From positions 2,604,001-2,668,000 of the forward strand of contig NZ_CP106855.1 of NCBI RefSeq assembly GCF_002209355.2: DNA of 64,000 nt. Direction: 5' to 3'. The notes below the pieces were generated by a model. The model was not told the origin of the DNA and ran no database searches. It saw nothing but the letters and a program-made list of their open reading frames with translations. The position numbers were made by a program, and so were the translations under genes. This DNA comes from Bdellovibrio sp. SKB1291214. Lineage in GTDB: Bacteria > Bdellovibrionota > Bdellovibrionia > Bdellovibrionales > Bdellovibrionaceae. Position 1 is the stretch's first letter, and each line of letters starts with the position of its first letter. This document shows positions 5,669 through 12,836 of the stretch, piece by piece.

Positions 5669-6595
5669 TTAGATGCCCTTCATGATGTCGCTGAGAAGCT
5701 GAATATGCTGCAGAGGATGTTGCCCCACGCGCTCTAGCATCAGTTTCTTAGCTGCTTCACTTTTCGGCACACCTTCAAAAGTGATCAAGCGATCAATGGC
5801 GTTGGCTGAACATACGATGGTTGCCAAAGGATCGGTGTCTTTTTCACGCAGACCCAAGGGGCCCGAGCCATCAATAAGTTCTTCATGTTGGGCGATGATG
5901 TTGATAACCGTTTGATCAAAGTGCTGTTTGTCGCGAACTTTGGCTGCGCCCTCGGAGGGATGTTTCCACCATAAAAGCTTATCCGCTGGATTCATGTCGG
6001 CCACTTTTTGATTCACGTTCATTCCCGATAAAAAGTGCCCGTAATCATGTAAAAGGGCCCCCAACGTCAAGAGTTGAGTTTTCTTAATGTCGTTGATTCC
6101 AAGTTTTTGCGCCAGGGCGATGGCAAGGGTGGATACCGTCACTCCATGATGGGCTAAGTTTTTATCGGTGTTTTCCATATGCATAATGGAAGACACCGAT
6201 TGCGCATTAGACATTACGAAACTGACGTATTTGCCTGCAGCATCTTTTGCGTAGTCATAGTTTTCTTTGCTTTCTGGATTTTCAAAGACTTCTTCGCAGT
6301 TTGATTGTTGCGCGCCTTGGATGACTTCCACACGGGTTTGCAGATCTTTTCCAGAAGCATTGTCGTATGCCATCTCAAGATTGCGATCCAAATAACCACG
6401 ATAGAGTTGTTCCTCTGTGGTCAAAATGTACATCTTGCGAAGTTGCTTTTCCTTCAAGCGCTTCAAGCGATCACCTTCAAAACTATCGCCACGACGTAGG
6501 TATAGGATCATCTTGTCGTTAATTTTGATATAGGCGTTGAAATCAATTTTTTGGTCTCCGCGAAGTGTACTCACGCGGACTGAGACATAATCCAT
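5669..6595 (-). CDS. unconventional HD-GYP domain protein (Bd1817-like)
   Basis: A 308-residue protein counted from the ATG at 6595 (GGAAG upstream; a TTG nine bases earlier is the alternative). Residues about 1-115 form an alpha/beta N-terminal domain; the rest is an HD-GYP phosphodiesterase fold with H150, H183-D184 (LLHDYGH), H212 in HPSEGA and H237 in QHEELIDGSGPLG. The GYP tyrosine is absent (SGP at 244-246) and the usual HDIGK is HDYGH. Length and these departures match my memory of Bd1817, a structurally solved B. bacteriovorus HD-GYP protein with a metal centre. Cyclic-di-GMP hydrolysis or binding is likely but not assured. It is divergent from an HPt-like gene. Confidence 0.85.
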   Translation of the reverse strand: MDYVSVRVSTLRGDQKIDFNAYIKINDKMILYLRRGDSFEGDRLKRLKEKQLRKMYILTTEEQLYRGYLDRNLEMAYDNASGKDLQTRVEVIQGAQQSNCEEVFENPESKENYDYAKDAAGKYVSFVMSNAQSVSSIMHMENTDKNLAHHGVTVSTLAIALAQKLGINDIKKTQLLTLGALLHDYGHFLSGMNVNQKVADMNPADKLLWWKHPSEGAAKVRDKQHFDQTVINIIAQHEELIDGSGPLGLREKDTDPLATIVCSANAIDRLITFEGVPKSEAAKKLMLERVGQHPLQHIQLLSDIMKGI

Positions 6596-6630
6596 TGCTT
6601 CCAAACCTTCCGATTGCTATCGTTTAGTGA

Positions 6631-7164
6631 ATGTCTATTGATAAAGAAATTGTAAAAGATTTTGTGAGCGAGTCAAAGACCTTGATTGAAGATATGATAG
6701 ATCTTCTCGAAGGTATAGAAGGCGATTTCTCTCAAGTGCAAAAACTTGCCGATTATGGAAATGGTGTAGATCGCATTATGGGGGGAGCAAAGAGCTTAGC
6801 TATGTCAGCCCCCCAAGATCATGCAGTTCACTTGATTTCTGACTATACAGCCCTATGCAAAGCAGTCGGATATAAGGCGTCACAAATCAAAGACAACGAA
6901 AATTTGTTTGATGTGTGTGTCGCCACTTTGCTGGATGGTTCCGAGACTCTCGACATACTTTTAGATCGCATTGATGAGCCGTTGTCGGCTTTAAAAGCCA
7001 GCATTCCTCAGGCGTTCATTGATCGCCTGCGTTGGGTGTCCGGCAAATTCTCTGATGACGTGGCTGCGAGTGTGGGAACAGGAAAAGCGGCACAAGAGGA
7101 TCCGGGCAAACAAAAACTTAAACAGAACGAAATCGACGATCTGTTGCGTAAGTTAGGATTGTAG
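6631..7164 (+). CDS. HPt-like signalling protein with CheZ/FliM-like C-terminal CheY-binding motif
   Basis: A 177-residue cytoplasmic helical protein. Residues about 5-125 resemble a histidine phosphotransfer bundle: VDRIMGGAKSLAM matches the HPt core H-x-L-K-G-x-A, but the phosphorylatable His is Asp (D47) and the Lys is Met. The last 15 residues, LKQNEIDDLLRKLGL, look like the C-terminal CheY-docking peptide of CheZ (DDLLDSLGF) and the N-terminal EIDALL motif of FliM. It is divergent from the HD-GYP gene at 5669-6595 and overlaps queG by 12 nt at the 3' end. It could be a CheY-binding adaptor or phosphatase; that function is inference from motif resemblance. Confidence 0.7.
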   Translation: MSIDKEIVKDFVSESKTLIEDMIDLLEGIEGDFSQVQKLADYGNGVDRIMGGAKSLAMSAPQDHAVHLISDYTALCKAVGYKASQIKDNENLFDVCVATLLDGSETLDILLDRIDEPLSALKASIPQAFIDRLRWVSGKFSDDVAASVGTGKAAQEDPGKQKLKQNEIDDLLRKLGL

Positions 7165-10057: not shown

Positions 10058-10516
10058 ATGAAATTATTAGTTTTTATTCTTTCATTAGTGTTTTCAGTTT
10101 CCGTTCGGGCCAGCGCGCCGGCTGAAGCTGACTTTTCAAAAATCAACTTTACCGGCCTGCAGGTTTTAAGTGCTTCCGGTGACAACGCGTTTCCGTGGGC
10201 GGTAAAACCCATGGTGAATGGCTGGGAAGATCTTTTAAAAAAGCTGGAGGAAGTTTCTTCCACAAAGATTGTCTCTCCGATATTTTACTTGGCGGAAAAA
10301 ACGTCTTTTAAGAACATCTTCGTTTTCGTCGGTAAGGATTCTGACGGAAATTTCCAGTTCGTGAACATCTATTACACGATGGCCGGGCAAATGTATGGCT
10401 CCAATATGAAAGTTATGAACGTCGAGCATGATCGCTTAGATGTCGCGCAAGGAATCCCTAACGAGCAACCTAAGGACTACTACAAGGTCGTCGCAAAAAA
10501 GCTATTCCCCTTTTAG
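10058..10516 (+). CDS. secreted hypothetical protein
   Basis: A 152-residue protein beginning with a signal peptide (MKLLVFILSLVFSVSVRASA). The ATG at 10058 is chosen because it starts the leader and is preceded by GAAGAGGGAGAG; the frame is open 11 codons further upstream inside the RDD gene. The mature part has no cysteines or recognisable motif. It is the last gene of the cca-RDD operon and its TAG overlaps the stop of the converging HD-GYP-like gene. Confidence 0.75.
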   Translation: MKLLVFILSLVFSVSVRASAPAEADFSKINFTGLQVLSASGDNAFPWAVKPMVNGWEDLLKKLEEVSSTKIVSPIFYLAEKTSFKNIFVFVGKDSDGNFQFVNIYYTMAGQMYGSNMKVMNVEHDRLDVAQGIPNEQPKDYYKVVAKKLFPF

Positions 10517-11895
10517 GAAGGTTTGAATTTCTTAGCGATGGAACTGATCATGACAAGGTCGTACAGGGCTTTGCCGCTGACGGCGTCTTCTTTCATGGCT
10601 GCCATGGCGACTTGTGGAGCGGCGGCTGCGATGCCTTCGCGCAAAGCGGTGGCTTCGTGAAATGCATAGGCAATTCCTAATAACTTACCAAAGTTGCTAA
10701 TGTCTTCACCCGGCATTCCTTTGGGAAAGCCAGTCCCACGTAAGTTTTCACGATGTTGCATGATAGCGTCTTGGATGTCTTGATTGATGGGAACTTTTTT
10801 GGCCTTCACCATATTTACGGAGCGCTCAGGATAGTATTTGTAATCCTTTGCGGCTTCAGCTGATAGCTTCGTGATATCAATTTCCGTGGCTGCAAAATCC
10901 GCTTGGGACAATCCAATATTATGCAAAAGTCCTGCAATAGCCGCGGATTCCCGCTTTTCCTCGGGCCAATCTAAGAGCTGAGCAAAGTAGGCGGCGAATG
11001 CCGACACACAAAGTGCATCGTGATAATAAGAACGGGTGTTGCCTGTATAGCGACAAACTTCATCATAGATCGCCGGGGGAGTCAGAGTCTTATTCAGTTC
11101 CAGTTCATTGATGATCGTTTTGCATTTCTCCAAAATGCCTTTACCCATGGAGTAATCTCCGGTGGCAGCATTTAGGAATTGTTGCATGAACTCATAGATA
11201 TTCTTTTTAGAACGATGAAACTTTTCAGTCATCGAAATCGGGAATGGAATATTACGCATGCTCATGATGGTTCTTGCAAACTCAAAGAACTGCTTCATCT
11301 GAGTTTTTTTAACGTACATTTGCTGGCGCATATTTTTAAATTTTTCAACGTGGCGATCTTCAATCACATCCCCTGTGCGACGTAAGATCACGGAACGATG
11401 ATTCGCCGGTAAGTGCGCATAGACATCAAAGTTCAATGTGATGTTGGGCTCCATGTCGCGCAAATCCACAGGCATCAAAGCGGTGATCGGAATGTTTTCG
11501 CCCTCAAGCTCGATGGGTGCTAATTGCAAAACCATGTCCGAGATAAATTCACGGTCGAAGTTGATGTGCATCACTTCGTCGGCCCCGTTTTTTTTGACCA
11601 CATTAAAATCAAGGGGAGCGGTTGAGTGCAAAACGATCAAATGACAATCGGGATAGTTCATCTTAGTGGTTTGAACCCACTCGTTGGTGATATTCGTTCC
11701 GGCTTCACCGTCGATCAAAGCTAAGATAGGTTGGAATTCAGTGTTTGAAGTCGCGTCGATAATCTCATCGACGCTTTTAAAGTGCTTAAGGATATAGGGG
11801 TAGTAGCCTTTCAAGACCGTTTTGATTGTCTCAAGGAAACCCGGTTTCGGGCTTCCTATGATCACATCAACAGTCTTTCCTGGGCCACCAGCCAT
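10513..11895 (-). CDS. receiver-like plus degenerate HD-GYP protein of the cheY-cheX operon
   Basis: A 460-residue soluble protein. Residues about 8-130 look like a response-regulator receiver fold (TVDVIIGSPKPGF, LALIDGE, then TAPLDFNVVKKNGADEVMH), though the acidic pocket is not canonical. Residues about 285-445 are an HD-GYP fold: H292 in the first helix, LLHNIGL where LLHDIGK is expected (N326 replaces the catalytic Asp), YPERS and QHRENLRGTGFPKG where HHE-D-G-GYP is expected (R386 replaces Asp). Metal-dependent c-di-GMP hydrolysis is therefore doubtful; a binding or scaffold role is likelier. It starts on TAATG with cheX. Confidence 0.8.
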   Translation of the reverse strand: MAGGPGKTVDVIIGSPKPGFLETIKTVLKGYYPYILKHFKSVDEIIDATSNTEFQPILALIDGEAGTNITNEWVQTTKMNYPDCHLIVLHSTAPLDFNVVKKNGADEVMHINFDREFISDMVLQLAPIELEGENIPITALMPVDLRDMEPNITLNFDVYAHLPANHRSVILRRTGDVIEDRHVEKFKNMRQQMYVKKTQMKQFFEFARTIMSMRNIPFPISMTEKFHRSKKNIYEFMQQFLNAATGDYSMGKGILEKCKTIINELELNKTLTPPAIYDEVCRYTGNTRSYYHDALCVSAFAAYFAQLLDWPEEKRESAAIAGLLHNIGLSQADFAATEIDITKLSAEAAKDYKYYPERSVNMVKAKKVPINQDIQDAIMQHRENLRGTGFPKGMPGEDISNFGKLLGIAYAFHEATALREGIAAAAPQVAMAAMKEDAVSGKALYDLVMISSIAKKFKPS

Positions 11896-12395
11896 TATTG
11901 CACCGTGATCTCCACGTAGAACGTAGAGTTATTAGGAAGATTGAAAGGAATGACCAGAGTCGCACCTTTATCCGCCTGGGTAATATTAAAATTACCAGAG
12001 ATAACAGTCGGGATCGCCATTTCAAAGTTATAACCCATTTGATTCAACGTCGTCTTTGCAGACCCGTAAATCATATTCGTCATTTCTCCAACAGCGTCGG
12101 AAACTTCTTTGTTAAGCTCTGTGTATTTCTCTCCCAGCATATTCTCTAAAATATGGAAAATGGAATCCTTGCCGTAAGAAATCAAAAGAGTGCCTTTAAG
12201 TGGGGGAGCCACCATACCAACCATACCCGCGATTTCGCCCTTAAGTACGAACTGTGGTTCGATGAACGGTTTCCCCGGTGTTGCCTTCGTTTGCCCCATG
12301 GTTTGAAGAGTTTTAATAACCCCATCCACGAACGCATTGATCAGGCGTTTGTCAAAGAGCGGATTCAAAGCATCCACTTTAGGTGCCGCAGACAT
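11895..12395 (-). CDS. cheX: CheX-type CheY-P phosphatase
   Basis: A 166-residue member of the CheC/CheX/FliY phosphatase group. The catalytic signature D-x3-E-x2-N is present as D100, E104 and N107 in EVSDAVGEMTNMIYGSAK, followed by the usual helix and a beta-hairpin tail. CheX dephosphorylates CheY~P and so ends chemotaxis signalling. It lies 24 nt after a CheY gene and overlaps the next gene as TAATG, so a regulator-phosphatase pairing is well supported by context. Length and one-domain architecture fit CheX rather than two-domain CheC. Confidence 0.88.
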   Translation of the reverse strand: MSAAPKVDALNPLFDKRLINAFVDGVIKTLQTMGQTKATPGKPFIEPQFVLKGEIAGMVGMVAPPLKGTLLISYGKDSIFHILENMLGEKYTELNKEVSDAVGEMTNMIYGSAKTTLNQMGYNFEMAIPTVISGNFNITQADKGATLVIPFNLPNNSTFYVEITVQ

Positions 12396-12419: not shown

Positions 12420-12836
12420 TTATGCGGCTTTAGTTGTAGAGTGTTTCGCCCAAACGCGTTCCATTTTCCCTTTTAGAGTCTGGGAATTGAATGGCTTGAC
12501 CACGTAATCTGAAACACCAGCTTTTGCGGCTTCAAGAATGTGCTTTTGCTCGGATTCAGCTGTAACTAGCATGAAGGGAGTAGATTTAAAGCGAGGGTCC
12601 GCTTTGCACGCCTTTAGAAGATCAATTCCTTGCATGCCAGGCATATTCCAGTCCGAGATAATGAACTCGTATGGTTTACCCGCGTCATGGGCAGCTTGAA
12701 TCATCGGCAAGGCAGTTTTTCCGTCGTCGGCTTCCTCGACGTTAGTATAGCCAAGCTCATTGAGGACTTTTTTGATGATTTTTCGCATAGTTGAGAAGTC
12801 GTCAACGATCAAAAATTTGGTCGTAGTGGGAAACAT
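12420..12836 (-). CDS. CheY-like single-domain response regulator
   Basis: A 138-residue stand-alone receiver. The acidic pair D12-D13, phosphoacceptor D62 (IISDWNMPGM), T92 (LVTAES) and K114 (VVKPF) match CheY closely, as does the N-terminal MRKIIKKVLNELGY helix. CheY~P binds the flagellar switch protein FliM; no output domain is present. It has a good ribosome binding site (AGGAG) and a sigma-28-like promoter 40 nt upstream, and leads an operon with cheX and a degenerate HD-GYP protein. A short C-terminal tail (AKHSTTKAA) is unlike E. coli CheY. Confidence 0.92.
   Translation of the reverse strand: MFPTTTKFLIVDDFSTMRKIIKKVLNELGYTNVEEADDGKTALPMIQAAHDAGKPYEFIISDWNMPGMQGIDLLKACKADPRFKSTPFMLVTAESEQKHILEAAKAGVSDYVVKPFNSQTLKGKMERVWAKHSTTKAA

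Follow-up and report, generated by a model that had tools for sequence, protein, structure and literature searches.

A His-less HPt-like protein with a CheY-binding-type tail, encoded beside the inactive HD-GYP protein Bd1817, as a probable regulator of CheY-P

The 177-aa protein described here, a pseudo-HPt, is encoded within a window of 64 kb (the whole stretch of DNA that was analysed) of the 3.68 Mb Bdellovibrio-type chromosome G000. A helical core of the CheA P1/HPt type, from which the phosphorylatable His and the Lys at +3 have been lost, is followed by a variable linker and a conserved peptide of the kind by which FliM and CheZ bind CheY. The gene is linked to that for Bd1817, an HD-GYP protein without phosphodiesterase activity, and in a sister family to genes for CheY and CheX. 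On balance we lean towards a non-phosphorylatable P1-type HPt whose tail would capture CheY-P, so that the signal is ended or blunted, with Bd1817 as its partner; the biochemistry in this account is what we infer from these features. The protein would probably damp or redirect the CheY signal together with Bd1817, and plausibly works like CheZ as a regulator of CheY-P, with an HPt fold as its base. The features are collected in Table 1.

Table 1. Features of the pseudo-HPt gene and its surroundings (window coordinates)
Feature	Position	Strand	Basis
Gene of the 177-aa pseudo-HPt, which ends in a CheY-binding-type peptide	6631..7164	+	Ortholog counts, ORF call
CheA-P1/HPt-like helical core, residues 5-147	6643..7071	+	Profile homology, model
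N44, amide three residues before D47	6760..6762	+	N or Q in 58/60
D47, position of the HPt phosphorylatable His	6769..6771	+	Conservation; register in alignments
Variable linker, residues 148-162	7072..7116	+	Low conservation, indels; pLDDT <50
CheZ/FliM-type tail LKQNEIDDLLRKLGL, residues 163-177	7117..7161	+	Conservation, CheZ-profile matches, genome pattern
Bd1817 ortholog, unconventional inactive HD-GYP, conserved divergent partner	5669..6604	-	PDB 3tm8 match, linkage
HD-GYP-type protein of the CheY-CheX cluster	10513..11895	-	Profile match, f12 loci
CheX, ExxN intact (EMTN); homologs directly downstream of the gene in the sister family	11895..12395	-	f12 loci
CheY, likely ligand; homologs directly upstream of the gene in the sister family	12420..12836	-	CheY matches, f12 loci

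The gene is single-copy in its genome and runs from an ATG at 6631 to a stop codon at 7162-7164; the position, the length of the product and the sequence given for it in an earlier sequence-only reading were all exact. Among 100 close relatives, protein searches found an ortholog in 63, and a profile built from 42 of the orthologs has matches, in several families, in 174 of the 369 genomes of the phylum to which that search was confined. The gene is therefore real and old. No match was found in NCBIfam or PHROGs, a PDB search with the single sequence returned matches at chance level only, and the viral contigs searched held no relative. The family is present in predatory Bdellovibrio and many relatives and is previously unstudied; the papers searched contain no mention of Bd1818 or of Bd1822-Bd1825.

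Just upstream, within 6588-6630, lies a TTGcnt-N17-TATCGT-like pair whose end is 5-7 bases ahead of the ATG in 23/23 sequences from genus members and near relatives, and which as a promoter would give a leaderless mRNA. It is not claimed as the promoter of the gene, since a standard promoter scan did not list it, and its conservation may have another cause because the TTG overlaps the conserved Bd1817 start.

The proposal that the protein fits the HPt core except at D47 is borne out by profile homology to CheA P1. Against Pfam Hpt (PF01627) the protein itself scores below the gathering cutoff of 24.6 (13 bits, E 0.13), as a single sequence. When sister-family orthologs were scanned singly, L139 (28.4 bits) and five of ten others passed the cutoff; L141 reaches 27.4 bits. 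A profile of remote orthologs (A3) matches Thermotoga maritima CheA P1 with E 1.3e-7 (2ld6) and 2.7e-6, and the remote-ortholog profile gives an hhalign score of 55.3, where shuffles reach at most 26.3. The close-ortholog alignment scores 41.4 against 13 P1/Hpt domains taken from CheA proteins of the same phylum; the highest score was 20.2 among 100 column shuffles and 24.0 among 100 heptad-block shuffles, and reversing the alignment gave 20.0. By these profile comparisons, the core is homologous to CheA P1/HPt.

A predicted structure without an HPt bundle had been named in the sequence-only reading as its refutation, and the prediction did not refute it. A structure model built from three sequences, of low confidence (pLDDT 60) and therefore supportive only, has five P1-like helices (residues 5-29, 33-58, 65-83, 90-112 and 127-147), with the tail forming a helix of its own (165-174). 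Foldseek ranks CheA3 P1 bound to CheY6 first among its matches (3kyi_A; probability 0.99, E 0.17). In VIA-align, designed four-helix bundles rank above CheA P1. The P1 rows have Z about 9, a level commonly reached between helical bundles, and P1 identity is therefore not proved by fold comparison alone. The protein has no match to CheX or CheC; among the 42 orthologs a single one matches CheX, at no better than E 0.039.

The active site is altered in a consistent way. In the profile alignments D47, within VDRIMGGAKSLAM (residues 46-58), falls on the P1 phospho-His. Of 60 close orthologs, 59 have Asp at residue 47 and one has Glu; the 20 remote orthologs aligned all have Asp. At the position of the HPt Lys (+3) there is Met in 56/60, and R48, M50 and G51 are likewise near-invariant. 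Few parts of the protein are as well conserved as the helix-B face around D47. Since the His is absent, the pseudo-HPt is not a functional HPt, in keeping with the earlier suggestion that it should not be an ordinary phosphotransfer protein. An ordinary HPt could in principle employ another His as phosphoacceptor, and H64 and H67 do exist, but they are kept in only 61% and 42% of the weighted sequences and lie outside helix B in the low-confidence model, and the HPt Lys is Met; this reading, most improbable, was dropped because the two residues are not conserved.

Known receiver phosphatases pair an acid with an amide, as in the ExxN of CheX and the DxxxQ of CheZ. Neither motif is present in the pseudo-HPt, which reads D47-RIM-G51 and has no Gln at +4, and with these core motifs absent membership of the CheZ or CheX family was rejected. 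It has instead [NQ]-x-x-D, the opposite order, although the amide at 44 is missing from two of the 60 close orthologs and from the remote ortholog L153. In RapH a single amide is enough (PMC3510030). The amide-x-x-acid order may be taken as a lead towards catalysis, no proof of it.

The C-terminal tail is more conserved than the core: residues 163-177 carry 2.77 bits per column, residues 1-140 2.32 and the linker (141-162) 1.02. Its consensus, Q.EIDDLLKKLGL, stands at the extreme C-terminus, with Q165, I168, D169, L171 and L172 as the conserved residues; the tails of the sister family are mostly like Q.SIDDLM.SLGL. Degenerate tails occur in some other families, and several remote orthologs (L153, L155-L157) have them. 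The likeness to the end of CheZ (DDLLDSLGF) and to FliM EIDALL, pointed out in the sequence-only reading, is upheld by weak close-ortholog matches to positions 176-203, 183-202 and 190-203 of the 203 in the CheZ profile (PF04344) and by the motif shared with FliM. The FliM of this genome starts MNQVLSQSEVDALL, as does that of most relatives, and FliM LSQxEIDALL is a CheY-P-binding sequence (PMC6700473). Searched for at the DNA level, Q-x-[DE]-[IVM]-D-x-[LF]-[LF] occurs seven times in the six frames of the 3.68 Mb genome, and the only recognisable proteins among these are FliM, at its N-terminus, and the pseudo-HPt, at its C-terminus. The conservation and this count led to rejection of a chance tail; a search of the genome with the 18-aa tail alone found only the tail itself.

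These comparisons support a FliM/CheZ-type CheY-binding peptide at the end of the protein. The tail might instead serve another partner, such as a flagellar or polar protein, with the likeness to FliM and CheZ convergent, for the motif is short, amounting to one amphipathic helix, and single Pfam CheZ matches of the orthologs are weak (E 0.08-0.34). However, it is a known CheY-P motif that is matched, at the extreme C-terminus and in a gene found in CheY operons, and such a partner seems a distant prospect. Binding of CheY-P by the pseudo-HPt is likely.

The neighbour on the other side, already read as an unconventional HD-GYP protein encoded divergently, proved to be the ortholog of Bd1817 (PDB 3tm8, E 3.5e-156); its listed start is 26 bases from the pseudo-HPt gene. 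Of 62 loci, a count in which one genome appears twice, 59 have a Bd1817 ortholog divergently adjoining the gene. Among the three exceptions, one locus lies at the end of a contig, and in two Bd1817 is encoded at another place in the genome. In G091 both pseudo-HPt copies are adjoined by Bd1817. Across the 100 relatives, 63 have both genes, none the pseudo-HPt gene only, four Bd1817 only and 33 neither (Fisher p 2e-22, or 2e-17 outside the genus, values that overstate independence because the genomes are related). In three of the four Bd1817-only genomes Bd1817 abuts QueG, as if the pseudo-HPt gene had been deleted, and these Bd1817 proteins are only 35-40% identical. Loci at which a Bd1817 homolog of 35-40% identity adjoins QueG with no pseudo-HPt gene between are L129, L130, L131 and L133. 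From this linkage Bd1817 seems a fairly likely physical partner of the pseudo-HPt.

The His-less domain also occurs in other settings. A 555-aa frame (L178, 1492-3156, plus strand) fuses a His-less HPt (Hpt E 0.007) to an HD domain (HD_5 E 8e-9), which supports a link between pseudo-HPts and HD-type proteins. Short paralogs of about 145 aa in the sister family (L170-L176) have FGQ..DRIYGTA and no CheY-type tail. At L168 a paralog on the minus strand (1501-1989) is without the DR motif (SGSIEQLRKAA) and has an end that keeps ELDALLGDLGL; next to it, on the plus strand (2037-2972), is a Bd1817-like HD-GYP. With the tail-less paralogs and the fusion, the His-less domain thus makes up a small superfamily within the phylum, one branch of which is marked by the CheY-binding tail.

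The pairing with Bd1817 could also reflect a non-catalytic adaptor, in which the tail grips CheY-P while the core binds Bd1817, giving mutual control of CheY-P and the HD-GYP protein (via c-di-GMP or another ligand), and in which D47 is structural or a negative-charge mimic. The divergent arrangement and the co-occurrence of the two genes suit such a role, as do the fusion to an HD domain and the finding that Bd1817 lacks phosphodiesterase activity (PMC4159591). The tail-less short paralogs keep Q..DRIYG and therefore the core must have a role of its own, again as expected of an adaptor. Yet in most loci of the sister family the gene lies beside CheY and CheX with no adjoining Bd1817, and the conservation of the helix-B face around D47 exceeds the need of a mere scaffold; a pure adaptor is possible but rather doubtful.

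The sister family (f12) provides the link to chemotaxis. Of the 15 loci read, 11 have the order CheY>gene>CheX, often preceded by an HD-GYP gene, and three others have an HD-GYP neighbour instead; in G092 (L060) the order is HD-GYP<gene>CheY-CheX. In the window, a CheY-CheX-HD-GYP cluster starts 3.3 kb beyond the pseudo-HPt gene. The genome encodes two close CheY-type proteins, one of them the CheY of this cluster, which is of the same type as those of Escherichia coli and Vibrio cholerae (E 1e-37 to 7e-42). Homologs of its HD-GYP-type protein occur in the CheY>gene>CheX operons; by eye, about 130 N-terminal residues of that protein resemble a degenerate receiver. These operons and the near-perfect pairing with Bd1817 strengthen the sequence-only reading of a CheY-docking adaptor or phosphatase.

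Over the 100 genomes, the pseudo-HPt gene co-occurs with CheA (p 2e-5) and with CheX (60 of 63 genomes, p 4e-7). The protein might thus be a helper of CheX, delivering CheY-P to this phosphatase or assembling CheY and CheX, as the 11 operons of the sister family, the co-occurrence and the intact ExxN of those CheX proteins would suggest. However, CheX was not detected in G026 and G038, which carry the gene, and in the Bdellovibrio genus it lies about 5 kb away, not adjacent; a role as CheX helper is unlikely. CheX is present in 79 of the 100 relatives, and ExxN was intact in those inspected; the need for a second phosphatase is therefore not obvious. No CheZ was found in the order: none passed the cutoff in the 100 relatives, in a search for which E. 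coli served as the positive control. G026 and G068 have the pseudo-HPt, a Bd1817 ortholog and FliM, and no CheA dimerisation domain was found in them at E 1e-5; the CheY kinase there may therefore be another protein.

The preferred reading, a CheY-P-capturing protein partnered by Bd1817, can be set out as a mechanism. A bundle derived from CheA P1 and no longer phosphorylatable would capture CheY-P, probably the CheY of the window cluster, through the amphipathic C-terminal peptide, which would bind the alpha4-beta5-alpha5 face in the manner of FliM and CheZ. The CheY phosphorylation site is the normal docking place of P1, and the flexible linker would let the helix-B face (N/Q44, D47, R48, G51) settle on it. 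The net effect would be that the CheY-P signal is ended or blunted before it reaches FliM, a fairly likely outcome. The route may most readily be aided hydrolysis, with the N/Q44 amide placing a water and D47 near the active-site Lys, or otherwise sequestration; that the signal is ended by catalysis is somewhat short of an even bet. Bd1817, the inactive HD-GYP, would be the regulatory partner.

The boldest form of this account would have an HPt-derived CheY-P phosphatase that lost its His, gained the reversed amide-x-x-acid and a CheZ-type tail, and stands in for CheZ in Bdellovibrionota, gated by a dead HD-GYP. This is a tentative proposal, and if true, c-di-GMP-type signalling and chemotaxis would meet on CheY-P in predatory bacteria. 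From the present analysis the pseudo-HPt emerges as a candidate regulator of CheY-P in a lineage in which no CheZ was found, and as a candidate for the partner of Bd1817, whose crystal structure has been published. If the reading is right, a phosphate-carrying HPt has become a protein that reads or erases a phosphorylated receiver.

Several known systems share part of this design. CheT of Sinorhizobium and Agrobacterium is also a helical protein, a CheY regulator specific to its lineage and additional to the classical ones. The plant pseudo-HPt AHP6 and ChpA of Pseudomonas aeruginosa have in common with our protein the HPt fold without a phosphorylatable His but, as far as is known, no tie to a CheY-P-binding tail and no HD-GYP partner. 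The His-less Hpt domains of ChpA have been described (PMC10542144). The predicted structure of CheT resembles CheZ and the protein has DXXXQ (PMC12654446), whereas the pseudo-HPt, compared by description with S. meliloti CheT, has no DXXXQ at D47. With CheZ (PF04344) it shares a CheY-binding-type C-terminal peptide that follows a flexible linker on a helical bundle, but the bundle is HPt-derived, and without the core motif DxxxQ or a CheZ core over threshold (L150 matches positions 102-203 at E 0.0011, 19.3 bits, below the cutoff of 30.7) the protein is not a CheZ. CheA P1 (PF01627; T. maritima 1tqg/2ld6, Rhodobacter sphaeroides CheA3 3kyi/3kyj) is a homologous bundle with the same helix B register, whereas the pseudo-HPt is a stand-alone protein in which Asp replaces the His and Met the Lys at +3, with an amide at -3 and the CheY-binding-type tail. 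Finally, the peptide motif that FliM carries at one terminus, LSQxEIDALL (PMC6700473), is placed by the pseudo-HPt at its C-terminus, where it has a CheZ-like ..LGL end and is attached to an HPt-derived bundle.
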